From: a virus
Reading direction: 5' to 3' (one strand)
Virus record (IMG/VR): IMGVR_UViG_3300002835_000601
Coordinates: 1-34,568 of that record
Length of the DNA: 34,568 nucleotides
Shown: in pieces, positions 1-19,628 of the stretch
How the letters are laid out: the number at the start of each line of letters is the position of its first letter
Numbering within the stretch: the first letter of the stretch is position 1
Translations under genes and position numbers: made by a program
The notes under the pieces: generated by a model
Told to the model about the DNA's origin: nothing
The model's input: the letters and a program-made list of their open reading frames with translations, nothing else
Database searches by the model: none

Positions 1-308
1 CGATAGTACTTACCTATGATTGAATTATCAAAACGATTCCTGCCGGCCGATATTCCGATACAATGTGTTTTACAGTGATTGTGCCTGGGACAGACATTAA
101 CTCCAGAATGATCGGCCGGTAGAAGCGCAACATATGCGCTTCGATATTGTGGATAAAGTTTGTACGACTTTGCAAGTTTAGTGTTTTGAGTCTCTGCCGT
201 ACATAAAATGGAATTCCTTTGAAAGTGCATGATCAGATCATGATCAGAGACCTCAGGTAAGGTTATTGCGCCGCCCGTATAGATTGATTGTGCCGATACT
301 GTGGACAT
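1..308 (-). CDS. Gp88/DUF7227-like phage protein, C-terminus cut by window edge
   Basis: This reading frame opens at an ATG at 308 (leftward), preceded by an AAGGA ribosome site about 9 bases upstream, and runs without a stop to base 1, giving about 102 residues. Near the end of the visible part it reads VALLPADHSGVNVCPRHNHC followed by KTHCIG and SAGRNRF. This resembles the phage Gp88/DUF7227 family, where a 'P...SG.NVCP....C...C....AGR' core carries conserved cysteines. The biochemical role of that family is not established. The gene lies alone, reading away from the repeat-rich non-coding region. The family match is from memory of the motif pattern, so it is moderate; the frame being coding is more certain. 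Confidence 0.6.
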   Translation of the reverse strand, partial: MSTVSAQSIYTGGAITLPEVSDHDLIMHFQRNSILCTAETQNTKLAKSYKLYPQYRSAYVALLPADHSGVNVCPRHNHCKTHCIGISAGRNRFDNSIIGKYY

Positions 309-1023
309 TAGATCGATTCCTTATCTGTTGACTAATTCAGGGGAAACATTCCCCCGCCGCAAGTAGTATCGATCCGAATATCTGTATTTTCAAGCCATTT
401 TTACGAGATCGGACTGGAACGTAAGTCTCTGGCCTGGCTGGCCTTTGGGGCGATTTCTGGGGGCTGGCTGGCCCCCTGGAGGGGGCTGGATGGGCGAGCG
501 TGTGCATGGGCGTGTTTGGCTTAGTGTCACTGTGTCACTGTATCCATGAGTGTCAGTGTATCACTGTGTCACTGTGTGGCCTCCTGCCTGATTATCAGGT
601 GGTCGTAGTTCCGTAAGTGTCACTGTGCGAGTATGTTACGATTTTGGATCTGGCAGAATGGCAGAGAAGTGGCAGAAAATGTCAACGATCTGGGCGAATG
701 TTGAACAAATTGCAAGGGAGCCAGAAGTCAACAAGATTGTGAAATAAAGAACGAAGTCCCGAGCCGGAGGGATTGGAGGTCAGTGGCAGGGTGACGGGCG
801 TGAGCCTGGGGCGAGGGTGCTGGGCTGGCTCGTTTAGGCTTAATTAAGCGTGATTAGGTCCCAAAGCGAGCTTTTTTAAGAAAAGTGGCAGTGTGTGCAA
901 TCACAAACCCTCCTCCCAATCTCCTCCCCTGAACCAATCATCACTAAGTTGTGTAAGATGGTGATATATGGTTTGCTGGTTAATAACTTACAACCTATCC
1001 CCGCGCCGTGTATGATGTTGCGT
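309..1023. other. Non-coding region with repeats and palindromes
   Basis: I see no convincing gene in this stretch. It contains a G/C-rich block at 459-486 where GGGGGC, GCCCCC and GGGGGC alternate, so two hairpins compete for the same central strand. It also contains the CACTGT repeats (524-626), a 13-base palindrome CCTGATTATCAGG at 587-599, three GGCAGA copies at 652-676, and a perfect 12-base palindrome GCTTAATTAAGC at 838-849. Such density of dyads suggests regulatory or replication sites. No function can be assigned. Confidence 0.5.
524..626. repeat. CACTGT repeat cluster A
   Basis: CACTGT occurs at 528, 536, 562, 570 and 621, with a CAGTGT variant at 554. Several copies sit in the longer word GTGTCACTGT, and the copy at 536 reads CACTGTATC. 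The same core builds the larger array at 2322-2495, so the two clusters on either side of the leftward gene group probably bind the same factor. Confidence 0.6.
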
Positions 1024-1057
1024 AAATAACAAAGAAGCCCAGCGGGTTGCTGGGCTT
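1024..1057 (-). terminator. Intrinsic terminator of the leftward gene ending at 1087
   Basis: A perfect 9-bp stem (AAGCCCAGC paired with GCTGGGCTT, 1035-1043 and 1049-1057) with a 5-base loop lies just after the stop of the 1087-1578 gene. Read leftward, the stem is followed by a T-rich run (CTTTGTTATTT), as expected of a Rho-independent terminator. Confidence 0.75.
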
Positions 1058-1086
1058 GAAATCGTATCTGGATTGTGGCGAGTGGA

Positions 1087-1578
1087 TCAGATCAGATAGA
1101 GTGGATTGCGTGCGAATTCAGGCCCATCGGCCCATCCTGTAAGTTTTTTTACCTGCTCAAGTTCATCCTCATGGATCATAACGCTCTCGGTTGTCAGAGT
1201 GTCGCCAAAGCGTTCAGCTATCTCGGGATGATCTTCGCGTAATTCAGCCCAAAATTCGTCTGCGGAATATTCAAAATCGACCGACACTCGAAACCAAGTC
1301 TCACCGTCATGGTCAATGTAGATCAATTTCCAATCTTGAGTGGTATCATCCAGCTTCAGGAAAATACCTTCCCATTCGCCCCAACTGCTATCACTGCCAC
1401 ATTCAAAGGCTCCACGCCCGTTAGGCCAGCGGCACATCGTACCAGTCCAAGATTGACCAAATTCATTTTCGCCTCTAACGTCCCAGATCTCGCAACCAAT
1501 CTCCAGTTCGGCGAGTTGATCGTGGGCGAAACTCATGCTTTTGGCTGTTTCGAGGTCTGCTGCTGTTTCGATTTTCAT
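1087..1578 (-). CDS. Hypothetical acidic protein (163 aa)
   Basis: I do not recognise this protein. The start at 1578 (MKIETAADLETAKSM) is chosen because AAGGAT lies 8 bases upstream; an upstream in-frame Met at 1626 lacks a site. The product is acidic and rich in Trp (for example SSWGEWEGIF and TGWADG) with no membrane segment or signal peptide, so it is probably a soluble cytoplasmic protein. It is the last gene of a leftward trio (2097 to 1087) and is followed directly by a strong terminator. Its position in an accessory arm next to a repeat array suggests a host-takeover or maintenance role, but nothing in the sequence proves it. Confidence 0.75.
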   Translation of the reverse strand: MKIETAADLETAKSMSFAHDQLAELEIGCEIWDVRGENEFGQSWTGTMCRWPNGRGAFECGSDSSWGEWEGIFLKLDDTTQDWKLIYIDHDGETWFRVSVDFEYSADEFWAELREDHPEIAERFGDTLTTESVMIHEDELEQVKKLTGWADGPEFARNPLYLI

Positions 1579-1684
1579 CTGTCTCGATCCTTCCGTTGGA
1601 AACATGTTTACCATTTGAGATACCAACCAATCTGATCCAATATAACCACTGACCTGGCAACAAGCCAGATCATTTAATCCGCTT

Positions 1685-1876
1685 TCATCTGGTCAATTCC
1701 TGAAAAGTGTAAGCTGCAAGATCAGACGCAAATCCGGTGGAATCACCACACAGGCCCAACAGGCCTCCAGCCACGGTGTCATCCGGTTCGCAGTCCACAA
1801 CGCAGCATCGATTCGCATCCCAATAGTGATGCCCTGCGATAGGACCATAATTCCTGAATCGTACGTACAAGATCAT
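1685..1876 (-). CDS. Small hypothetical protein (63 aa)
   Basis: A short leftward ORF starting MILYVRFRNYGPIAGHHYWD. It has a good ribosome site (AAGGGGC, 6-7 bases before the ATG at 1876) and starts 11 bases after the stop of the gene ending at 1888, consistent with co-transcription. It has three cysteines in the middle (RCCVVDCEPDD) but no recognisable fold. No family is assigned. Confidence 0.6.
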   Translation of the reverse strand: MILYVRFRNYGPIAGHHYWDANRCCVVDCEPDDTVAGGLLGLCGDSTGFASDLAAYTFQELTR

Positions 1877-1887
1877 GATTCTGCCCC

Positions 1888-2097
1888 TTACTTAGAGTCG
1901 CAATAAGTTTGGAAACCTTGGCCTGTTTTGAGATACCTGGTCGCAGCCACAGACGTTTCCAGACTCCACCCAAGCTCATCATGCAAATAATCGCAGATCG
2001 CAACTGCGGATCGTCTCTTGGCAAGATCTCTTGCCTGAGTCAACTGACCGTTGATCAAGCTCTCAGCCATAAATTCAAACGCTTCTGATCGTTTCAT
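1888..2097 (-). CDS. Small hypothetical protein (69 aa), first gene of leftward trio
   Basis: The ORF starts MKRSEAFEFMAESLINGQLT at 2097, with AGGGA about 9 bases upstream. A longer in-frame version beginning at 2154 would start inside the leader and has no clear ribosome site. The protein is mostly helical by composition (AKRRSAVAICDYLHDELGWS). No known domain is recognised. A TTGACT-N17-TATATT promoter about 60-90 bases upstream would drive this gene and the two that follow. Confidence 0.65.
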   Translation of the reverse strand: MKRSEAFEFMAESLINGQLTQARDLAKRRSAVAICDYLHDELGWSLETSVAATRYLKTGQGFQTYCDSK

Positions 2098-2156
2098 GAT
2101 TCGTCGTCCCTTACTTGGTTTTGAGATTTCATCGAGAACATTTCCCCGACACACAA

Positions 2157-2185
2157 AATATATCGACCGGATGAGCCAGAGTCAA
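2157..2185 (-). promoter_or_regulatory. Sigma70-type promoter for the leftward 2097-1087 genes
   Basis: Read leftward, the -35 box is TTGACT (2185-2180), the spacer is exactly 17 bases and the -10 box is TATATT (2162-2157). It shares the 17-base spacing with the other promoters found in this window. The first gene starts at 2097. Confidence 0.65.
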
Positions 2186-2321
2186 AAAGATTTCTCAAAA
2201 AATGTCAACGGCCTTTGATCTAACTTAATGGCTTATTCCATAGGGTTTGACGCTGATTTGGGCCTGAACTTCGGCCTGAATATGGGTGCGCGTGTACATA
2301 CGCCTATAGGCGTGCGTGAGG

Positions 2322-2495
2322 CAGTGTATCCCCGTAGGATATCATATTTAGCACTGTATCTATAAGTATCACTGTATGACACTGTATCTGGGTAGATCAC
2401 TGTATCTATATTTGGCACTGTATCCGAATAAGGCACTGTATAGGTGTAGAGTGGTGTAGGACAGTGTATCAGGAGTCAGTTTACACCAGTGTATC
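2322..2495. repeat. CACTGTATC array with 18-bp period (cluster B)
   Basis: Nine copies of CA(C/G)TGTAT lie at 2322, 2352, 2370, 2380, 2398, 2416, 2434, 2462 and 2487, all in one orientation. The steps 2352-2370 and 2380-2398-2416-2434 are exactly 18 bases; the remaining gaps are 30, 10, 28 and 25. Same-face direct repeats of this kind are typical of iterons at replication origins or of arrays bound by a cooperative regulator. A leftward ORF through them (2233-2436) only translates the period as a repeated D-T pattern and is not believed. Confidence 0.7.
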
Positions 2496-2860
2496 TATAA
2501 GGCTGAATATACTACTGAGTGGGATACTGAACAAAGTTATACTTTGCATTTTACGTCTGTAATACTTCAGAGACAGAAGACGACCTTTTCCCCTACACTA
2601 CACCTGACTCACATCTTGTTTCCTCTAGGCCTTGTATGAGAATCCTCATATCACCTATCAGAAACCTGTGAATCCTGATTCAACTCAACCTTAGACGTCA
2701 TTTCCCACTTAAGGGAACATTCCATCTGGCTGAAAGAATCTGGTAGTGGGCGAATACTAGGTCTGGTCAGCTTACCGATTAGACTCGTTTTAGTGTAGGG
2801 ACCAGGTTGTTAGGTATCAACAGTGCCTGGATTCGATAGTGAGTCTACCCGTCAAGCCGA
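2496..2860. other. Intergenic, no feature recognised
   Basis: No ORF with a ribosome site, tRNA or hairpin terminator is seen here. The region directly follows the repeat array and could be part of the same control or origin region, but that is conjecture. Confidence 0.4.
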
Positions 2861-3307
2861 ATGGCGATCCTCATTTACCACTGTCCAGTGCTGCACTCAG
2901 CGAGCGTTCGTCAAACGCCTTCCCCCTGGACACTCATCTATCACTCACTGACCCTTGCCGGAGGATCTGACCAACTTCCCAGTACTGGGTATGTGTGGCA
3001 AGGAAACCTGTACTACGATATTGATCGCGTTTTTAGGCTGTCAGCGTTTTCTTGTCAAAGAGTTGTGAGATATACGACGGATGCGATCCAGTTCGCGTAT
3101 AGGCGGGTGATTGACTCACCACTTATCTTGCCTCCGTCACCCAGTTTAACCGTCGGTTCATGCTGGGTAGTAGATTCAGCTCTCGCTGATGAGGGGGTTA
3201 TCGTATTCAGCGCAAGGCTTGGTCCGCTCTTTTTCAACCCTGATCTCACCATCAATTGTACATCACCCTCATATCCATGTCAACGACCTACCAAACGCAT
3301 AGCTTGA
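2861..3307 (+). CDS. Possible hypothetical ORF (148 aa), doubtful
   Basis: This is an uninterrupted 149-codon frame starting MAILIYHCPVLHSASV. A stop codon lies shortly upstream, so it cannot be extended, and no ribosome site precedes the ATG. The sequence is rich in Ser, Pro and hydrophobic residues and matches no family I know. It is followed by an A/T-rich stretch and the promoter of the next operon. It may be a chance open frame; it is listed because it is the only sizeable frame in a gap of about 1.4 kb. Confidence 0.25.
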   Translation: MAILIYHCPVLHSASVRQTPSPWTLIYHSLTLAGGSDQLPSTGYVWQGNLYYDIDRVFRLSAFSCQRVVRYTTDAIQFAYRRVIDSPLILPPSPSLTVGSCWVVDSALADEGVIVFSARLGPLFFNPDLTINCTSPSYPCQRPTKRIA

Positions 3308-3425
3308 CAGACTTACAAAAACGTATAAACACCATATATCCCACCCTCCCATTAAACTATAAGCCCTTACATTATAACGGATTGGCGAGTTTTTAAAAAA
3401 TATGTACATAAAATTTAGTCGCGTA

Positions 3426-3454
3426 TTGACATTCATATGTCGATAGACTAACAT
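3426..3454 (+). promoter_or_regulatory. Sigma70-type promoter of the rightward small-gene operon
   Basis: The -35 box is TTGACA (3426-3431), the spacer is 17 bases and the -10 box is TAACAT (3449-3454). The -35 lies inside a near-palindrome, ATTGACAT-TCAT-ATGTCGAT (3425-3444), that could be an operator covering the promoter. The first gene starts at 3501. Confidence 0.7.
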
Positions 3455-3500
3455 TCCTCCAAGGCTGGAACACATAAGAAACGTCACACAGGGAGGATCG

Positions 3501-3902
3501 ATGGCGAACTCGCTCAAGTACTCAACAGAATTTAATCCAGGTCAACTGGCAGCTATGAAGGGCATCCTGAGAAAGAATGGATGGGAGACAGAGGATACGA
3601 TTGTCAACGGCATCGAACTCTATGCATTTGGGTATGGATATGCCATCGCTGACTGGAAAAAGATCTGGTCCGAAAAACCTTTCCCTGAAGACTTCCCTTA
3701 TATACCGCTTCTCATGCTACCTCACCATAAACTGCTGGGAAAGATCCAGCACGACATTAACCATAATCCAGACCGCAAACGTCACATGGAGAAGATGCAC
3801 GAAAAGGCCTACTTGACTTACGTTGAGTCTTACCAAACAGATTGGGAGTCTCAAGACTTGCTTTATAGATACAAAAAACTGATGAAAGAGGCTCAAGTAT
3901 GA
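3501..3902 (+). CDS. Hypothetical early protein (133 aa)
   Basis: First gene of the rightward operon, with a strong GGGAGG ribosome site 4 bases before the ATG. The protein starts MANSLKYSTEFNPGQLAAMK and has a mixed charged/aromatic composition with an N-terminal helix that could bind DNA or protein (GQLAAMKGILRKNGW). There is no membrane segment and no known family. Its stop overlaps the next start as ATGA (3899), implying translational coupling. As first gene under the operon promoter it is probably an early-expressed accessory protein. Confidence 0.8.
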   Translation: MANSLKYSTEFNPGQLAAMKGILRKNGWETEDTIVNGIELYAFGYGYAIADWKKIWSEKPFPEDFPYIPLLMLPHHKLLGKIQHDINHNPDRKRHMEKMHEKAYLTYVESYQTDWESQDLLYRYKKLMKEAQV

Positions 3903-8362: not shown

Positions 8363-9643
8363 TCAAACAGCAATCACTCTTCTCATATTACCGCATAAAT
8401 GCGTGTAACCTAACGAGATACTATCCACGCAGTCGTCATGTACATCCGCAGGAGTCCCAGTAAAGGAATCGATCTCCTCGAAGCATGCATCCGTCCAGCC
8501 ACCAAGAACATAGAAAATGTTTCCAGCTGATGCCGCGCGGCTAAAAGGGACTGCCCTTGTCAATTTGTTTGACCCAGGTGAACTCCAGGCAACACGCCTT
8601 CCGGCCAGATTCTTCAGTTGATGCTGCAACAACCGCTTCCCAGCCGAGCCAGGCTCAACCTCAATTACAATCGTTGTTCCAGGTCCATCCTCATCCGATG
8701 TTTGCGAGATTTTTGGATCAACGTCCTCAGCCGAATATTGCTGGCGAATCTGGTCAAAGATGATCACCTTCTCTGTCCCTGGAATCAGGCCCATCAGAGT
8801 CCCAACCGTGTAATCCGACCTTCGGCCCACAGTCGCAGCACAGTCCCAACTTCGGCACATAATGAGCCTCTCGGGTATCGGTCCTTGCCATGGTCTGATC
8901 CACGATGACTTCATCAAAGCCCCGTCCGTATCGCAAAACAGCCCTTCAACTTCCTGTTTGTAGAAAGCCCCATCATAAGCAGCCTTAAGGCTTTGCACGA
9001 AGAAGTCAGGGTTGAACGTGTTGGAATATGATGGAGCATGGATCATCTCAGCAATGCCAGCCTGGATGGCTCGGTATTCCCACCTGTTTTTCCCTCGAGG
9101 GGTAAAAGTTGCCCATAACTTACCGGGATTCTTTCTTAAGCGGCCCAGCAGAACTTTATAGGTATCTTCATCGCAAAAGCTGGCCTCATCCATGTACACA
9201 GCCCCAGCATTAGTCCCCCGCAGCCTGTCCGGCTTATCCGCAGATCTCCACAAAATTGTCCGGTCACCTTTGACCTTCGTTTCCATATCCGTTTTGTTGT
9301 GGCTCATGATCAGGCCAGACTGACCGTAAAGCTCTTCAAACATACGGAACGTGGAGTCTTTGAGGATCGTAAAAGTCGGTGCAACGACAATCGTGAGCGT
9401 CCCTTTAGGCTGGTTCATAATCTCGATCACGCCAGCACGAGTCTTCCCAGCACCAACCCCACCCACAAAAAATTTCTGCTTCGATGGAGAGACCCAGAAC
9501 TGCAACTGCTGTGGAGTAAAGGTACTTACATTATGTATCTGACGACGACCCGTCTTCTCCTTCCGAAGCTGCGAGAACAGGGAGTTCTGATTCATTCGTT
9601 CCAGCCGGAAGTCGTCCTGATCCATCGACATATTTTTTGACAT
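8363..9643 (-). CDS. terL: Terminase large subunit (426 aa)
   Basis: The ATPase/nuclease motor that pumps DNA into the prohead and cuts it. The start at 9643 has AGGGG about 6 bases upstream; the longer open frame before it has no site. The Walker A motif is GGVGAGKT (residues 61-68) and Walker B is AVYMDEA (Asp152-Glu153). A LWATFTPRG segment follows as motif III. The RNase H-like nuclease half shows SWDCA (Asp267), IVIEVEPGSAGK (about 326-336) and a terminal VHDDCVDS. All key acidic residues are present and the length is typical. The start overlaps the small terminase gene by 113 bases, more than usual. Confidence 0.95.
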   Translation of the reverse strand: MSKNMSMDQDDFRLERMNQNSLFSQLRKEKTGRRQIHNVSTFTPQQLQFWVSPSKQKFFVGGVGAGKTRAGVIEIMNQPKGTLTIVVAPTFTILKDSTFRMFEELYGQSGLIMSHNKTDMETKVKGDRTILWRSADKPDRLRGTNAGAVYMDEASFCDEDTYKVLLGRLRKNPGKLWATFTPRGKNRWEYRAIQAGIAEMIHAPSYSNTFNPDFFVQSLKAAYDGAFYKQEVEGLFCDTDGALMKSSWIRPWQGPIPERLIMCRSWDCAATVGRRSDYTVGTLMGLIPGTEKVIIFDQIRQQYSAEDVDPKISQTSDEDGPGTTIVIEVEPGSAGKRLLQHQLKNLAGRRVAWSSPGSNKLTRAVPFSRAASAGNIFYVLGGWTDACFEEIDSFTGTPADVHDDCVDSISLGYTHLCGNMRRVIAV

Positions 9644-10298
9644 TTTCGTTCCCCTGGTACTGCCTCGAGAGTTCTGAACTAATTTCTGCCAGCGTTTTCC
9701 CTGCGATTCGCTGCTCAACCTGGTCGTTCGACATCTGCCTGTCCCAGAACTGCAACTTGACCTCAGGTTTGGCGAATTCCATACCCCTGGTACGCTCAAG
9801 CCACCATGCCGCAGGAATCCAGTTCCCCTTCTTGGCTGCGTCCAGGATCACGTTTACACAAAGGTCTCGAGTCGCGTTCTGGGCATTATCAAAATCTATT
9901 TTTCGCTGTGGGTTCTTCTTCATGTACAGCCAGAGCGTTTTGCGATGCACGCCGATAGCTTTAGCGATTGCACTGATCTCATAACCCATCTTTGCCGACT
10001 CAATAATCTTGGCCCAGTGATTACGTATCTTCTTCTGAGGCTGATTGTTAGCCAATCCCTTGCGAGTCAGGAACGCCGGCTTCGTCGTCATCAATTCCAG
10101 ATTGGCTTCAACGTCATCACTAAAGTCGTAACGAGTATCAAGATTAGGAACCTTAACAGACTTCTTGGGCTTAACTTTAGGAGTAGGCTCGACTTCGGTT
10201 TCGGTTTCGATCTCGGCTTTATGAACAGTTGTTTTCGGTGGTCGTCCACGCTTTTTAGGCGTTTCGCCGGATTCAGATGGGGCTGATTTCTTTGCCAT
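9531..10298 (-). CDS. terS: Terminase small subunit, AT-hook and HTH (255 aa)
   Basis: Recognises phage DNA and hands it to the large subunit. The N-terminus has an AT-hook-like KKRGRPPK followed by a long charged linker (about residues 22-60). A helix-turn-helix follows (GYEISAIAKAIGVHRKTLWL), then NWIPAAWWLERTRGMEF, a phrase typical of small terminases. The start at 10298 (MAKKSAPSESGE) is chosen because the longer open frame would run through the preceding gene. The ribosome site is weak, so it may be translated by coupling to the 65-aa ORF it overlaps by 26 bases. The family is judged from the HTH/WWLER pattern and from its place directly before terL. Confidence 0.85.
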   Translation of the reverse strand: MAKKSAPSESGETPKKRGRPPKTTVHKAEIETETEVEPTPKVKPKKSVKVPNLDTRYDFSDDVEANLELMTTKPAFLTRKGLANNQPQKKIRNHWAKIIESAKMGYEISAIAKAIGVHRKTLWLYMKKNPQRKIDFDNAQNATRDLCVNVILDAAKKGNWIPAAWWLERTRGMEFAKPEVKLQFWDRQMSNDQVEQRIAGKTLAEISSELSRQYQGNENVKKYVDGSGRLPAGTNESELPVLAASEGEDGSSSDT

Positions 10299-10505: not shown

Positions 10506-10528
10506 TCTAAATCGTGTTACTTTTTGTG

Positions 10529-10557
10529 TTGACATATTCTGTGGAATTGTGTACATT
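10529..10557 (+). promoter_or_regulatory. Promoter for the tRNA-like gene and the exonuclease
   Basis: The -35 box is TTGACA (10529-10534), the spacer is 17 bases and the -10 box is TACATT (10552-10557). The tRNA-like gene begins at 10584, about 20 bases past the expected start point. Confidence 0.7.
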
Positions 10558-10583
10558 TATGCCATCGGACGTTACGTCTGGTT

Positions 10584-10655
10584 CCACGGGTCGCCACATG
10601 GGTAGGCAAAAGGCTCAAGGGCTTTCGGATGCAGGTTCAAATCCTGTCCCGTGGA
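10584..10655 (+). tRNA. tRNA-like gene, anticodon CAA (Leu codon UUG) but short variable loop
   Basis: The sequence folds as a full cloverleaf of 72 bases. The acceptor stem is perfect (CCACGGG with CCCGTGG), the D arm has 3 bp with a GG in the loop, and U8 is present. The anticodon arm has the loop CTCAAGG (U33, purine 37), and the T arm is GCAGG-TTCAAAT-CCTGT; the discriminator base is A. The anticodon stem has a G-G mismatch next to the loop. CCA is not encoded. The anticodon would read UUG (Leu), yet the variable region has 5 bases, whereas bacterial leucine tRNAs carry a long arm. It may therefore be a diverged phage tRNA with altered identity or one not used as a standard tRNA. Confidence 0.75.
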
Positions 10656-10774
10656 TTGGCTGCCAGGTCGCATACTTCTTCGGTATGATCCTCAAGACAC
10701 GCTCGGCCTGGTTCAGCCTTCAAATCCTAAAGATCCTCCCTACCCATGGAAGGGGAATCTCTAAGGACTGCCAC

Positions 10775-11629
10775 TTGCAACGTCATCACTACCTCGGTGC
10801 TTCAGAAATTGCCTGTATTTTAGGCATCTCGCCATTTGGCGACAAATTTAAAGTCTGGTATGGAAAAACCCATCCAAGAGAATTCGATTCAACCCCGACA
10901 GGCAAGATGCAACTGGGGCTTGATACGGAAGACTTCGTTCTCACCCAGTTTGAAAAGCGGTTTAATACAACCGTCACTCGCAAACAAGAGCGGATGCGTC
11001 ACTGGCTGGAAGACTGGGCTGGTTGCACTCTTGACGGTATGGCCGTTGTAAACGGCGAGAAAGCCGTGATTGAAGCCAAGACAATTGGCACATCCATTTA
11101 CAACACGCCTCCCGATTACTACGTCATCCAGGTGCTTTGGCAGCAGTGGGTTGCTGGCGTTGATCAAGGTTATCTGGTCGTCTGGTCCACCAAAGATCTT
11201 GCGTTTGAATCCTATCCGATCCATATTGCAGATCACCAGGCCAAATTGACTGAAGCTGTTCAGGCCGGAAAAGAATTCTGGATGAACCACGTTGTAACCG
11301 AAATCCCCCCGGAACGAAATACAACTGAACGTCAAGACAAAGAATTACCGGAAGATCTTCTCGAAGAATATTGCCATGTCCAGGACCAGATCAAAGATCT
11401 CACCGTCAGGAAAGATATTCTTCGCCAGCAAATCGTCGAAGCCATGGGTTGTCCTAGCGAATTGAAAAGCCAGTCTTCAAAATACCAGCTTGACATCACA
11501 ACGACACAGACCAAACGATTGAATTCCAAAAAACTGGAGAGTGACAATCCAGAACTCGTGCAAAATTATTTTGAAACCTCGAGCAGTCAAAGGGTAGTTG
11601 CCAAAAGATTATCTGCTCGAATTTCCTGA
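10775..11629 (+). CDS. YqaJ-type viral recombinase / exonuclease (284 aa)
   Basis: A lambda-exonuclease-fold nuclease that would resect DNA ends for phage recombination. The start is likely the TTG at 10775, which has AAGGA 7 bases upstream and gives MQRHHYLGASEIACILGISP, the usual opening of YqaJ proteins. The open frame continues upstream only through the tRNA. Visible motifs are GASEIACILG, GLDTEDFV, the active-site pair GCTLDG and VIEAKT, and a following QVLWQQWVAGVDQGYLVVW strand-helix. An ATG at 10685 is an alternative start without a ribosome site. The C-terminal third is a charged helical extension. Its end overlaps the convergent gene at 11609 by 21 bases. Confidence 0.85.
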   Translation: MQRHHYLGASEIACILGISPFGDKFKVWYGKTHPREFDSTPTGKMQLGLDTEDFVLTQFEKRFNTTVTRKQERMRHWLEDWAGCTLDGMAVVNGEKAVIEAKTIGTSIYNTPPDYYVIQVLWQQWVAGVDQGYLVVWSTKDLAFESYPIHIADHQAKLTEAVQAGKEFWMNHVVTEIPPERNTTERQDKELPEDLLEEYCHVQDQIKDLTVRKDILRQQIVEAMGCPSELKSQSSKYQLDITTTQTKRLNSKKLESDNPELVQNYFETSSSQRVVAKRLSARIS

Positions 11630-12678: not shown

Positions 12679-13710
12679 TCAAGCTGGCTTAACCAGCCCC
12701 TTCGCTTTCATCGCCGACTCAGCCATGTACTCCTTGTCCTGGTGAACCTGTGAGTAGACCTTCATGATCATGGTTACGTCCCTGTGTCCCATCAGCTTTG
12801 CCAATGTCACAGGATCAACCCCGTTTTGCAAAGCCTGTGTGCAGTATCCTTTACGGAATGCTCCAAGGTGAATCTTGACTCCAAACTTATTGCGAAGACG
12901 AATCATCGCATCCTTTACGGAAGTCTTATTCCACGGGTTGCCCTGTGTGTTGACCATAATTGGCCCCTCAGAGCGTCTCTTGGCATAATCCGACAGAATC
13001 TCCATGGCTCGATCCGATGCGATGTAGACCGTTCTGGCGTACTTCTTGCCCTTGGCCTCTGCCGCAGGGAACACGATCATTCGCTCATCCTTACGGAAGT
13101 GCCGAGCCTCGATCAGGACCAGTTCCTGAGGTCGCATACCTGTATCCCAGGCAAGAATCATAAGATCCTTAAGCGGAGACTCAGGGATGTTGGACTCGAT
13201 AAACGACCACTGCTCAGGCGTTATGTAATCTTCTCGGGCTTCAGGAGAACACTTTTCAAGATGCTCCACTGGGTCAGTCTCGATCAGCCTGTTTTTTTTG
13301 GCCCAGCTAAATAGCCTTTTGATAGCCCGTGCGAAGTTGTAACGGCTGTTGGCCTTCCATGTCCGCTGGCTGGAAATCATAAGAGAAATCTGGCTCAAGC
13401 TGACATTCTCTGCCACCGTATCTCCTTTCACGTACTGGGCTAACTTATCAAAATACATACCATACCACTGCCACGTTCGCTCGGAACGAGACGTTTTCAT
13501 CTCCTCAATGAAGGCATCACAGATGGTTTTGACCGTTGGCTTGTTCGATTCCTCAGGAACCCCACCAGCCATGATCAAGTGCCATTTGGCCCAAGATTCT
13601 GCCTTGCTTTCTGCCAACTTTATCTGCCGCTTACCAACTTGTAAGTACCACGCTCTACGTGATTTACGGTAGAACGGTTCATTTCGCGATTCCATAGCTT
13701 GTACTCGCAT
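12679..13710 (-). CDS. int: Tyrosine recombinase integrase (343 aa)
   Basis: Integrates the phage at a tRNA-Ala gene and helps excise it. The N-terminus (PFYRKSRRAWYLQVGKRQIK) is the arm-binding region, followed by a SAM-like core-binding domain (about 60-150). The catalytic domain shows the full set: Arg in DTGMRPQEL, Lys in the KGKKYARTV hairpin, HLGAFR (His-x-x-x-x-Arg box), GHRD, and the nucleophile Tyr in MKVYSQV. The length is normal. The opening pattern is one I associate with Planctomycete integrases (weak). It reads away from the attP core, which begins about 75 bases upstream of its start. A second possible start is Met6 at 13695. Confidence 0.93.
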   Translation of the reverse strand: MRVQAMESRNEPFYRKSRRAWYLQVGKRQIKLAESKAESWAKWHLIMAGGVPEESNKPTVKTICDAFIEEMKTSRSERTWQWYGMYFDKLAQYVKGDTVAENVSLSQISLMISSQRTWKANSRYNFARAIKRLFSWAKKNRLIETDPVEHLEKCSPEAREDYITPEQWSFIESNIPESPLKDLMILAWDTGMRPQELVLIEARHFRKDERMIVFPAAEAKGKKYARTVYIASDRAMEILSDYAKRRSEGPIMVNTQGNPWNKTSVKDAMIRLRNKFGVKIHLGAFRKGYCTQALQNGVDPVTLAKLMGHRDVTMIMKVYSQVHQDKEYMAESAMKAKGLVKPA

Positions 13711-13784: not shown

Positions 13785-13828
13785 TGGAGACGATCGGGAT
13801 CGAACCGACAACCCCCTGCTTGCAAAGC
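13785..13828 (-). other. attP core: 3' half of tRNA-Ala(TGC)
   Basis: The reverse complement reads as the 3' part of an alanine tRNA: anticodon loop TTTGCAA with the 3' stem GCAGG, a T arm GTCGG-TTCGATC-CCGAT, acceptor 3' strand CGTCTCC, discriminator A. The matching 5' half (acceptor GGAGACG, D arm) is absent. A 3' tRNA fragment next to an integrase is the classic phage attachment core, which restores the host tRNA on integration. Phage genes flank both sides, so this is attP and not attL or attR. Confidence 0.85.
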
Positions 13829-13927
13829 TGAGGGCAAACTGTTGTACTGTATGGGTTTAGGTCATTTTCATCCCGCCGAACAGCTCGACGGGACAAGAGT
13901 GAATTTAGACTTCCGACCACCTGACTG

Positions 13928-14185
13928 TCAAGAAAAATCTTGATCCATTTCTTCAAGTTCTTTTTCAAGTTCCTTGAGAGCAGGTTTCATCATGGCGATT
14001 TGCTCGTCGAGAGTCAGATCTAAATAACATTTTAGTAAAGCTGATACGAGAGCTTCGGCTGAGACCTGTCGGCCTTCAAAAACCAATCCTCGTTCAGAGA
14101 GTTCGATGCAGTTACGCTTAATGCCTTCGTGTATACGAGGCGTTGATCGGGCATTAACTCGCGGTCCAGAGCTTAACGTAGCCAT
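13928..14185 (-). CDS. Small hypothetical protein (85 aa) beside attP
   Basis: Starts MATLSSGPRVNARSTPRIHE with AAAGGG upstream. The C-terminal third is a strongly charged helix (ALKELEKELEEMDQDFS) and the middle is helical (SAEALVSALLKCYLDLTLDE). No HTH or other domain is certain. Being between attP and the replication promoter, with two tandem promoters of its own, it is a candidate lysogeny regulator or excisionase, but no family supports that. Confidence 0.65.
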   Translation of the reverse strand: MATLSSGPRVNARSTPRIHEGIKRNCIELSERGLVFEGRQVSAEALVSALLKCYLDLTLDEQIAMMKPALKELEKELEEMDQDFS

Positions 14186-15057: not shown

Positions 15058-15276
15058 ATGCTAGTACTTTCAAGAAACCCTGGCGAATCGATTCAATTGT
15101 TTGGACCTGAGGGGAGGTTGCTTGCAACGATAACGTATATCACTCTGTCAAGCACGAGGTCGATCAGGGTTGGCTTTGAGGCTGAACCAGACATTACGAT
15201 AGTTCGCTCCGAGATTTCGGGTAGACCTAATAATGGGAAAAAACCCGCTCACTCTCGGATGGATAAAACTACTTAA
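15058..15276 (+). CDS. csrA: CsrA-like RNA-binding regulator (72 aa)
   Basis: CsrA binds GGA-loop hairpins in mRNA leaders and blocks or stabilises them. The protein begins MLVLSRNPGESI, the near-invariant CsrA opening (Leu4 in place), continues through SIRVGFEAEPDITIVRSEI, and keeps the RNA-contacting Arg (Arg50, equivalent to Arg44 of the E. coli protein). The usual His before it is Val. Compared with cellular CsrA, the first hairpin is longer by about 4-6 residues (FGPEGRLLATITYITLSST), and the tail is a short basic extension. It sits in the replication operon and overlaps the prim-pol start by 44 bases. A hairpin over its own ribosome site suggests autoregulation. Confidence 0.88.
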   Translation: MLVLSRNPGESIQLFGPEGRLLATITYITLSSTRSIRVGFEAEPDITIVRSEISGRPNNGKKPAHSRMDKTT

Positions 15277-16813: not shown

Positions 16814-17230
16814 ATGATGGATGCAGATCAGAAAATCAGAAATGCTTTTTCGGACGCTGAAAAGGCTGTACCAGATGCAGAATTGAAATACACGATTATC
16901 CGAGAGGCTTTTGAGTCTCACAAAGATGATGATGAACGACAGTACGAGTACATTTACGAGCGATTGGCGAAGCCTAAAAGGTCTGCTCTTGCCCGTGATA
17001 TGAACGCATGGTTATATCTACATAAGATAGCACATGAACTTCTGGCTCAGTCTCAGATCTGCTTACTTAATGCTGAAGGTGAAACACCTGGCCCACTACT
17101 TGCCCGATTGCAACGCCCAGTGATTAGGTCGCCCAGGAACTGGAGGATTTGCGGCATCTGTGATGGGACTGGTGAAGACCCAACGATTGCTCATTGCAAT
17201 GGATGCTGGGGACACGGGTATTATGTCTGA
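16814..17230 (+). CDS. Hypothetical protein with DnaJ-type zinc knuckle (138 aa)
   Basis: AGGAGG is followed by GTG (16811), ATG (16814) and ATG (16817); the ATG at 16814 is chosen. The first about 105 residues are helical (MMDADQKIRNAFSDAEKAV...). The C-terminus has two CxxCxGxG-like units, CGICDGTG (Cys113, Cys116) and CNGCWGHG (Cys128, Cys131), the zinc-binding repeats of DnaJ-type fingers, so it probably holds one zinc ion. Its stop overlaps the helicase start (ATGTCTGA, 17223-17230). It may be a loader or adaptor for that helicase, which is inference from coupling. Confidence 0.75.
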   Translation: MMDADQKIRNAFSDAEKAVPDAELKYTIIREAFESHKDDDERQYEYIYERLAKPKRSALARDMNAWLYLHKIAHELLAQSQICLLNAEGETPGPLLARLQRPVIRSPRNWRICGICDGTGEDPTIAHCNGCWGHGYYV

Positions 17231-19628
17231 GCTAACCTATTCTGCGTTAATGGATTGCGAGTTTTCAACTTATCCGTACCAGGATGAGGCGATTGATAAG
17301 ATTAGGTCATGGGTCTACGAGGATGATCATAAAGCTGGAATTCTCCAGATGGCGACCGGATGTATATCCGGTGATGCAATCGTGACTATTAACCGTGGAG
17401 GCAAGGGTGTTACTCGGTCTCTTCGGGATCACTTTAGGCTTCAGGCTGACCCAAGGGTCAAACCTCATGTAGTAAAGCGTGTCCGAAGTTTTAACGGTAA
17501 GCACGTTGAATGCAATGGATTCAGCCGTATCCAGTCCAGCGGGGTCAAGCCTGTTGTTAGGGTTCGATTTGCAAGTGGACGAGAACTCGTATGCACTCCT
17601 GATCATAAGATCTTGTCGTCGAATGGATGGGTTGAAGCAAAGGACTCGTCAGGCAAGAGTATCGTAGTCGAAGCAAGCCAACGCAAGTCCGGTGACCGGG
17701 AGCCGAAGCCTAAGAAGCGATACAGGCAAGTTAACAAACTTTACTATCACCCGTACGCTGGGAAATGCGTCTCGAACAGAAGAGGAAAGTCTCTAAGGCT
17801 TTATCGCGTGGCTTACCATAGGCTTGTGGTTGAGTCTGAAATGAATGAGATGCCCCTTGACAAGTACATTGAATGCTTGAGAAACGGAGACATTGGCAAG
17901 TCATGGGTTTATCTTGACCCAGCAGTAACCGCAGTTCATCACGTCAACGGAGATCATACTGACAACAGGAGCGGAAACCTGGCGATTATGAGTCATCAGG
18001 AGCATTGGTCTCTTGAAGGCAAACAAAGCAATCACCTGAACATCGGCAAAACGCTGGTTGAAACAGACAATGTCTTTGCCGTTGAGAATGCTGGCTGGAT
18101 CGATACCTACGACATCGTTAGCGTAGACAAGACAAGCAATTTCATTGCCAACGGAGTCGTTGTACATAACTGTGGAAAGACCGTAACCGTAGGTATTCTG
18201 ATTCGTCAGTTGATTGAGGAGGGGTTTATCTCTCGAGCCTTGTTCGCAGTCCACCGGACAGAACTTGTGAAACAGGCAATAGACACGTTTGAATTGTGCG
18301 GGCTAATGGTGGGTCGTGAGCAAGGTTCCCATCACGGGTTTGCCCTAGGTGATCCGCATGTGGTTTGCACAACCATTCAGTCCATGACCAAGCGATGCAA
18401 GCGGTATCAGCCGGACGATTTCCAGTTGATCATCACGGATGAAGTCCATCACGCAGGAGAATCCAATAAGACATACTCATCCGTTTACGACCACTTCCCT
18501 GACTCAAAACTTGTTGGGGTCACTGCAACGATTGATCGGCCTGACGGACAGAGTCTGAAGCGTTTCGAGGAAGTCGTTTACAGCTACTCGCTTTATGACG
18601 CGATCCATGATCCTGCTGGCCCATTTTTATCACCTGTCAAGTTTGTCCGGTGTTCTCTGGGGGTTGACCTGAGGGGATGCAAAACAACGGGTAAGAATGG
18701 CGATTTCGCTCAGGGAGATCTTGGTCGTAAGATCCAGCCAGCCATCGAGCTATTAGCGAACGCGATCAGCAAAGAGATTGAGGACCGAAAGAAGATCATT
18801 GTCTTCATGCCTGATGTTGGCTCGTCTATCGCGATGGCTGATGCCTTGAAGCAACTGGGACATGCTGCGGACTGGGTCTCCGGTGATAAGCCTGACCGTG
18901 ATAGCACGATACAGCGTTACAAAAACGGTCTCACAAAGATCCTTGTCAACTGCCAGATCCTCACCGAGGGGTTTGATGACAAGCCCACAGACTGTGTTGT
19001 TCTAAAGCCCACTCGAAGCCGGATCGCATACGCCCAGATGGTGGGTCGTGGTACGAGGCTTTGCAAAGATAAATCAGACTGTTTGATTCTGGATTTCTCA
19101 CACACGACAGACATGGATCTGATTGGGCCAAGCTCGTTGACAGATTGTGAGGAGGTTGATTCCAAGCGTGCTGAGGAGTTGGTCGAGGAGGGTGTTGATC
19201 TGTGGCAAGCTGTGGAGCGAGCCAAGACGGAACGTAAACAACGACAGGAGATCAAGGTTCCGGTTGCCAGGCTGGACATGAGTTATCGGCGGGTCGAGAT
19301 TAATCCATTTGAGCTTGCGGCTTCATTGGGTGTGTCCCGAGCCATGCTGACCAACGCCAATCGATTCGGAGAGCTTGCGACTCCCGCCCAGAAGGATTTT
19401 CTGAACAAGTCTGGGATGGCAGATGTCAATAACATGACCAAGCGTCAGGCTTCGCAGTTGATCGGCCAGATCATTGACAGACGAAACTCGGGGCTGTGTT
19501 CGATCAAACAGTTGAACTACCTGATTTCGCTGGGGATGAAGCCTGAAAAGGCTCGAGGATTGCAGTTTGGACAGGCAGCAGAAGCGATTCAAAAGTACAG
19601 GTCGAATCAGGCTGGATCGCAAGAGTAA
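17223..19628 (+). CDS. SF2 DNA helicase interrupted by an intein (801 aa precursor)
   Basis: ATP-driven strand separation or remodelling at phage replication forks. The start at 17223 overlaps the previous stop by 8 bases. The helicase begins YPYQDEAIDKIRSW, and its Walker A (MATG-CGKT) is split by a 270-aa intein at residues 47-316. After splicing the host protein is about 531 residues. Downstream come the DEVHH box (ITDEVHHAG), GVTAT, a motif-V-like ILTEGFD and motif VI QMVGRGTRL, all in order. The C-terminal tail (LATPAQKDFLNKSG; SIKQLNYLISLGMK) has two similar helical units that resemble each other and may bind DNA or a partner. Without splicing the ATPase would be inactive. Confidence 0.93.
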   Translation: MSELTYSALMDCEFSTYPYQDEAIDKIRSWVYEDDHKAGILQMATGCISGDAIVTINRGGKGVTRSLRDHFRLQADPRVKPHVVKRVRSFNGKHVECNGFSRIQSSGVKPVVRVRFASGRELVCTPDHKILSSNGWVEAKDSSGKSIVVEASQRKSGDREPKPKKRYRQVNKLYYHPYAGKCVSNRRGKSLRLYRVAYHRLVVESEMNEMPLDKYIECLRNGDIGKSWVYLDPAVTAVHHVNGDHTDNRSGNLAIMSHQEHWSLEGKQSNHLNIGKTLVETDNVFAVENAGWIDTYDIVSVDKTSNFIANGVVVHNCGKTVTVGILIRQLIEEGFISRALFAVHRTELVKQAIDTFELCGLMVGREQGSHHGFALGDPHVVCTTIQSMTKRCKRYQPDDFQLIITDEVHHAGESNKTYSSVYDHFPDSKLVGVTATIDRPDGQSLKRFEEVVYSYSLYDAIHDPAGPFLSPVKFVRCSLGVDLRGCKTTGKNGDFAQGDLGRKIQPAIELLANAISKEIEDRKKIIVFMPDVGSSIAMADALKQLGHAADWVSGDKPDRDSTIQRYKNGLTKILVNCQILTEGFDDKPTDCVVLKPTRSRIAYAQMVGRGTRLCKDKSDCLILDFSHTTDMDLIGPSSLTDCEEVDSKRAEELVEEGVDLWQAVERAKTERKQRQEIKVPVARLDMSYRRVEINPFELAASLGVSRAMLTNANRFGELATPAQKDFLNKSGMADVNNMTKRQASQLIGQIIDRRNSGLCSIKQLNYLISLGMKPEKARGLQFGQAAEAIQKYRSNQAGSQE
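17361..18170 (+). mobile_element. Intein with HNH homing endonuclease, inserted in the Walker A motif
   Basis: The insert starts with Cys (CISGDAIVTINRGG, block A) and ends VVVHN before a +1 Cys, giving the full splice chemistry (Cys1, penultimate His, terminal Asn, Cys+1). Block B is CTPDHKILSSNGWVEAKD with the conserved Thr and His. Block F is the WIDTYDIVSVD stretch. The centre holds VHHVNGDHTDNRSGN and MSHQEHW, an HNH nuclease core (about residues 238-262 of the precursor), rather than the commoner LAGLIDADG type. Removal yields an intact MATGCGKT P-loop. As the nuclease looks complete, it is likely a mobile element able to home into intein-free alleles. Confidence 0.93.

Follow-up and report, generated by a model that had tools for sequence, protein, structure and literature searches.

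A conserved direct-repeat array and an adjacent candidate structured RNA in a lineage of uncultured temperate-type phages

Nine short direct repeats, CASTGTAT (S is C or G), form a genuine array that is conserved among related, uncultured phages of temperate type. Our leading reading, given about an even chance, is that a protein binds the array cooperatively, as an operator or upstream activator site, to control modular promoter cassettes. Beside it lies a candidate structured RNA that is undescribed as far as Rfam goes, and this is the more surprising part of the locus.

The stretch of DNA analysed (34,568 nt, positions 1 to 34,568 of IMG/VR record IMGVR_UViG_3300002835_000601; "the window") is most of a temperate-type tailed phage. 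Both ends of the window overlap with a 37.6-kb sequence, G001 (from L072), which adds about 13 kb between them. Joined in this way, the map is circular, about 47 kb long, and has the portal gene and late operon immediately to the left of a second repeat cluster. The following genes were recognised in the window:

8363-9799: terminase
10514-11629: YqaJ/RecE-type exonuclease ORF
12679-13710: tyrosine integrase
15058-15276: phage-encoded CsrA-like protein
15233: Prim-Pol
17160-19628: intein-bearing helicase
20045: thymidylate synthase
21590: resolvase
34568 down to 22585, minus strand: structural genes, transcribed leftward

The segment at 13790-13840, adjoining the integrase gene, resembles the 3' half of tRNA-Ala(TGC) and was judged by eye to be a likely attP; given the integrase and this attP-like segment, the phage probably integrates. 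An intein with an HNH domain appears to split the helicase gene. A tRNA-Leu(caa), detected with ARAGORN and Rfam at 10583-10656, lies inside the 5' part of the exonuclease ORF, so the start of that ORF is probably further in. Among 50,697 phage records there was no match to region 1-3500, to the Prim-Pol or to the structured RNA of a distant relative (G007), and the terminase had distant relatives only, with less than 30% identity among the matches listed. A search of 84,980 species genomes gave no 24-mer of the RNA and no relative of the portal protein; judged by these searches, the phage has no close cultured relative among the phage records and species genomes covered.

The repeat locus and its leftward transcription unit comprise these features:

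2322-2494, plus strand: main array, nine 8-bp CASTGTAT copies with 10-bp linkers near the consensus CTGTRTARRS
2300-2313, no strand: perfect 14-bp palindrome ACGCCTATAGGCGT, seen in the sequence, adjoining the array
2284-2299, plus strand: motif GGGTGCGCGTGTACAT, found in alignments between array and promoter and common to the second cluster
2180-2210, no strand: AT-rich, near-invariant block AGTCAAAAAGATTTCTCAAAAAATGTCAACG, located at the -35 box and upstream from it
2157-2185, minus strand: conserved leftward promoter of predicted sigma70 type, TTGACT-17-TATATT, its -35 box 137 bp from the first copy
1888-2097, minus strand: orphan ORF, 69 aa from its ATG, in a swappable slot behind the array
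1087-1626, minus strand: further leftward orphan gene with homologues in relatives
1035-1057, minus strand: hairpin resembling an intrinsic terminator, closing the leftward unit
3426-3454, plus strand: predicted divergent rightward promoter TTGACA-17-TAACAT, heading an early operon of small genes from 3501

The nine copies begin at 2322, 2352, 2370, 2380, 2398, 2416, 2434, 2462 and 2487, the last ending at 2494, and all nine lie on the plus strand in one orientation (six CAC, three CAG). They are separated by steps of 30, 18, 10, 18, 18, 18, 28 and 25 bp, so that the earlier sequence-only reading, which had described nine direct repeats with four steps of exactly 18 bp, was borne out. That reading had also placed both clusters outside any believable gene, and we agree: the longest ORF across the main array, a minus-strand frame of 67 aa, simply reads through the repeat. 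A scan of the whole window on both strands, a check it had proposed, gave 12 exact CASTGTAT copies, where shuffled sequence averaged 1.54 and never exceeded 5; nine of the 12 are packed into 173 bp. The motif is not spread through the rest of the genome either, because G001 carries just the same two clusters plus isolated copies. A literature search on the motif returned nothing relevant.

Folding of the array was no better than that of shuffles when the strand was treated as RNA (z -0.06) and not markedly above them as DNA (z -1.42). A folded element was ruled out on these values, and the lack of unusual RNA folding argues for action as double-stranded DNA. A LexA (SOS) box or half-site was likewise rejected, since the CTGT-N8-ACAG dyad is absent and all copies are direct repeats in one orientation. 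As a separate observation, ATGTCAACGRYCT (CGTTGACAT on the minus strand) occurs three times in the window, at 679-691, 2202-2214 and 3277-3289; one copy is part of the AT-rich block of the array module and another is the -35 of the promoter predicted for the RNA.

The second cluster, also noted in the earlier reading, is real, though looser, and is arranged in the same way:

526-626, plus strand: same core (CASTGTRT) with steps of 8, 18, 8 and 8 bp and an outlier near 621
365-393, minus strand: conserved predicted leftward promoter TTGAAA-17-GATACT, its -35 box 135 bp from the cluster
3-308, minus strand: first gene behind that promoter, running off the window

Exact CASTGTAT stands at 536 and 554 and CASTGTGT at 528, 562 and 570, so that the looser cores span 528-577, with a degenerate copy near 621, and no convincing gene overlaps the cluster. 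Its motif GGGCGAGCGTGTGCAT at 492-507 matches GGGTGCGCGTGTACAT of the main array, the two clusters sharing the GGGYRAGCGTGTRYAT-type motif. The distance from cluster to -35 box is 132-136 bp at 12 loci, near-duplicates included. The -10 box reads GATAAT in most relatives and GATACT in the window, at least five unrelated ORFs occupy the position behind this module among relatives, and the portal gene and late operon follow the cassette on related contigs.

The main-array locus was also found in L007, L034, L035, L049, L060, L066, L072 and L005, the last nearly identical to the window and not independent of it. Nine array modules from eight contigs were compared. Copy number varies among relatives from 7 to 13, with orientation and spacing grammar kept: steps of 18 bp occur 46 times, of 10 bp 15 times and of 28 bp five times, with a few others. 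Comparison of 55 18-bp units shows a core that is all but constant except for C/G at position 3, a constancy that is partly by construction as CASTGTAT was the search pattern, and 10-bp linkers that are only biased. Leftward of the array, the alignment shows strong conservation of a GCGTGTACAT motif, the palindrome (intact in most modules, degraded in L034a and L035, with one change in L066), the AT-rich near-invariant block and the TTGACT-17-TATATT promoter, of which the AT-rich block doubles as the upstream part. The -35 box lies 137 bp from the first array copy in seven of the nine modules and 131 bp from it in the other two, and start codons follow 57-71 nt past the -10 box. All promoters given here are consensus matches on sequence. 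Other viral contigs with 18-bp-spaced copies were rejected as carrying unrelated repeats, many resembling coding repeats; weak terminase matches were the only proteins they had in common with the phage family.

What lies behind the module is exchanged. Six unrelated orphan ORFs were found in the slot downstream of this one module type, each swappable gene sitting behind its own predicted promoter in the manner of a moron; unrelated ORFs fill the slot in L066, L034a, L034b/L049, L035 and L072. L034 carries the promoter-plus-array module twice with a different gene behind each, and so has three arrays, against two in each of the other phages of the lineage. The homologue in L035 of the orphan gene at 1087-1626 stands directly behind an array module. 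Terminator-like hairpins are predicted at 1057-1035 and 1668-1649. The stretch separating the portal gene from the leftward orphan genes carries tandem repeats of about 45-50 bp, each with a hairpin of about 20 bp, in L095, L096, L101, L102, L106 and L109; the hairpin sequence differs among relatives and several contigs break there. In L112 and L113, which belong to a distant clade, arrays of ATATGTTCATATGTGAATATC-like repeats lie directly upstream of the portal gene, as do GGTGGCGGCCCC repeats in L113.

Between the main array and the rightward early operon, a further element was identified that, like the promoters and the modular layout, the sequence-only reading had missed:

2540-3248, minus strand: candidate large structured non-coding RNA beside the array, 5' end near 3248 and 3' end near 2540
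3255-3283, minus strand: predicted promoter of this RNA, TTGACA-17-TACAAT, largely conserved in relatives

The region is about 80-90% conserved in relatives, and a coding gene was rejected because no long ORF is common to nine of them. Folding was stronger on the minus strand (z -4.0) than on the plus strand (z -3.0; 20 shuffles each), and whole helices are gained or lost among relatives. In four helices, both partners differ in nine of 23 pairs, against a mean of 2.1 in shuffles and 0-1 in slid controls, in an alignment that includes the distant relative G007, the source of most of the double changes, and with helices picked after the RNAalifold output and G007 had been seen, so that the comparison was not blind. 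Covariation support comes mainly from G007, since in RNAalifold on the seven close relatives alone the covariation term was slightly unfavourable, with nine of 167 pairs changed on both sides. G007 is 52% identical to the window phage in terminase and 72% in portal. A covariance model of the RNA scored 121 bits on G007, which is in its training set, and 99 bits on L125, which is outside the training set and resembles G007. None of the Rfam covariance models, GOLLD, ROOL and OLE included, matched. The element is thus a candidate minus-strand structured RNA of ~ 700 nt, with covariation in its favour and absent from Rfam. A 56-nt fragment in non-coding DNA of L124 (10935-11900) scored 32.8 bits against the model, a tentative match; that phage has no detectable protein homologues here, and the locus itself had been picked out by a pattern drawn from the same motif. 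The CsrA-like protein is a possible RNA-binding partner, as a candidate only.

Directly after the RNA, both G007 and L125 carry a tandem array whose 12-13-bp repeats are unrelated to CASTGTAT (GGACCAACCAGC; GATGRCCCACCR). Both contigs end inside that array, before any promoter side, and the two are mutually related and count as one further clade. As unrelated repeats follow the same RNA, the order "RNA, then direct-repeat array" has been kept and the repeat sequence replaced. RNA and 3' array might accordingly form one device whose array sequence is wholly replaced between clades, controlling late-gene or accessory-gene cassettes, or replication, by an as yet undescribed mechanism that combines an RNA with a protein-bound array; we regard this as possible, if somewhat improbable. 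Such a device would represent a new class among large phage RNAs, one tied to an array of direct repeats that evolves fast, and the pairing of array and RNA in two clades with unrelated repeats offers a natural experiment for finding the binding protein.

Two clusters of the same orientation and geometry, before two promoters of swappable genes, are best explained as transcription control elements. We propose that the main array and the second cluster act as double-stranded DNA operator arrays, on which a phage- or host-encoded protein would occupy neighbouring 8-bp CASTGTAT sites in a cooperative manner. The bound protein would control the two leftward sigma70-type promoters about 135 bp away, either by repression, through spreading or looping, or by activation. 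Each promoter would head an expression cassette made of a conserved leader and then a frequently exchanged orphan gene, the second cassette leading into the portal gene and late operon. The sequence-only reading had offered a cooperatively bound repressor array as one of two options. Comparative anatomy, namely the fixed promoter distance, the duplication in L034 and the gene swapping, speaks for its regulatory part, be it repression or activation. The operator reading is also supported by the array's corresponding place in G007 and L125 despite the unrelated repeats.

Some points count against it. Simple repressors do not usually act from sites more than 130 bp upstream, a step of 18 bp does not correspond to full turns of the helix, and part of the conserved array-promoter distance may reflect common descent and not constraint. 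The search for the array-binding protein did not find it and left two candidates with uninformative predicted structures: the suspected ribbon-helix-helix proteins at 3501-3902 and 13928-14185 were set aside with AlphaFold mean pLDDT of 57 and 71 from shallow alignments, and Foldseek found no significant match to the predicted structure of the second. Several relatives that carry the array also lack the 3501 gene. Pfam and PHROGs gave nothing usable for the small genes beside the array.

The other option in the sequence-only reading was an iteron origin of replication, over which we favour the operator or upstream-activator array; the operator reading stands at about an even chance, the origin we consider doubtful, though possible. 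There, an initiator would bind the direct repeats and melt the AT-rich block (2155-2210), perhaps primed by the transcript of the structured RNA, with the second cluster as an accessory replication site, as in phage P4. Direct repeats of one orientation in non-coding DNA, next to an invariant AT-rich block that is also part of a promoter, fit this reading, and no other iteron array was seen at the other intergenic gaps examined. Over most of the genome, genes to the left and right are transcribed away from the array, the RNA transcript points at it, and the replacement of the repeats in distant relatives is what co-evolution of initiator and site could produce. However, there are two arrays per phage and three in L034, each behaving as part of a gene cassette, and the Prim-Pol and helicase genes lie 12-17 kb away. 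No initiator was recognised at or near the array, as the earlier reading had said, and the binding factor was likewise not found. The GC-skew check it had suggested went against an origin here: neither GC nor third-position skew switches at the array, a weak test in which coding bias dominates, and the cumulative skew minimum of the window falls near 14 kb. Nor is the 18-bp step about two helical turns.

Less probable than the origin, and in our view unlikely, is an insulator or roadblock, in which a bound protein would stop RNA polymerase coming from the promoter of the structured RNA, set the 3' end of that RNA and protect the next promoter. The RNA is directed toward the array in each of the two clades, whose repeat sequences differ, and no intrinsic terminator is predicted between the two; yet the second cluster is not beside the RNA and already lies beyond an intrinsic terminator, and such a role needs no fixed distance to the downstream promoter. 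A partition (centromere) or packaging site, bound by a segregation protein or by terminase, seems very unlikely. Centromeres of the ParR or ribbon-helix-helix kind are arrays of short direct repeats too, and the array is a few kb from the portal gene, but no partition gene was recognised in the window, a phage with an integrase and an attP-like tRNA-Ala segment probably integrates, the small terminase gene is 7 kb away, and one phage would carry three such sites. We give slightly less credence still to a tandem duplication without function, gaining and losing copies through slippage. Copy number does vary among relatives, and 18-bp units can expand in this way; against this, the core is almost letter-perfect in 55 units while the linkers vary, allowing for a search pattern that favours intact cores, and the same position and related spacing recur in two cassette types.

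The operator reading yields a testable model: exchangeable accessory genes in this lineage of uncultured phages of temperate type may be controlled through a single conserved cassette of promoter plus array, placed ahead of one orphan gene or another. The candidate RNA may add a large structured phage RNA outside Rfam, where the functions of GOLLD and ROOL are themselves still unknown.

Several known systems resemble parts of this locus. Ribbon-helix-helix regulators, such as omega of pSM19035 and those reading MetJ boxes, bind cooperatively to 7-8-bp sites repeated near promoters, and the arrays here are like them in consisting of short repeated sites near promoters; they differ in their steps of 8, 10, 18 and 28 bp and in a start over 130 bp upstream of the -35 box. 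No ribbon-helix-helix protein was identified. Phage P4 has ori1 plus crr, with direct repeats in two separated clusters. This likeness, shared with iteron origins, is offset by the cassette context, the lack of a skew switch and of a neighbouring initiator, and the three arrays in L034. The start-associated and extended start-associated sequences of mycobacteriophages lie at the start codon, singly or as inverted repeats (PMC3203893). They too are phage-specific repeats, mostly of one orientation, before many unrelated genes (PMC3203893), whereas the present ones form long direct-repeat arrays far upstream of a promoter. In phage moron cassettes, a swappable accessory gene stands behind its own promoter (PMC7067206); the cassettes described here, known from sequence, add a conserved direct-repeat array and a leader. 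GOLLD, ROOL and OLE are large, elaborately folded non-coding RNAs, of which GOLLD and ROOL are phage-encoded (PMC12286853). The RNA at 2540-3248 shares their size and elaborate predicted fold, but has no Rfam match and adjoins a repeat array, not a tRNA island.
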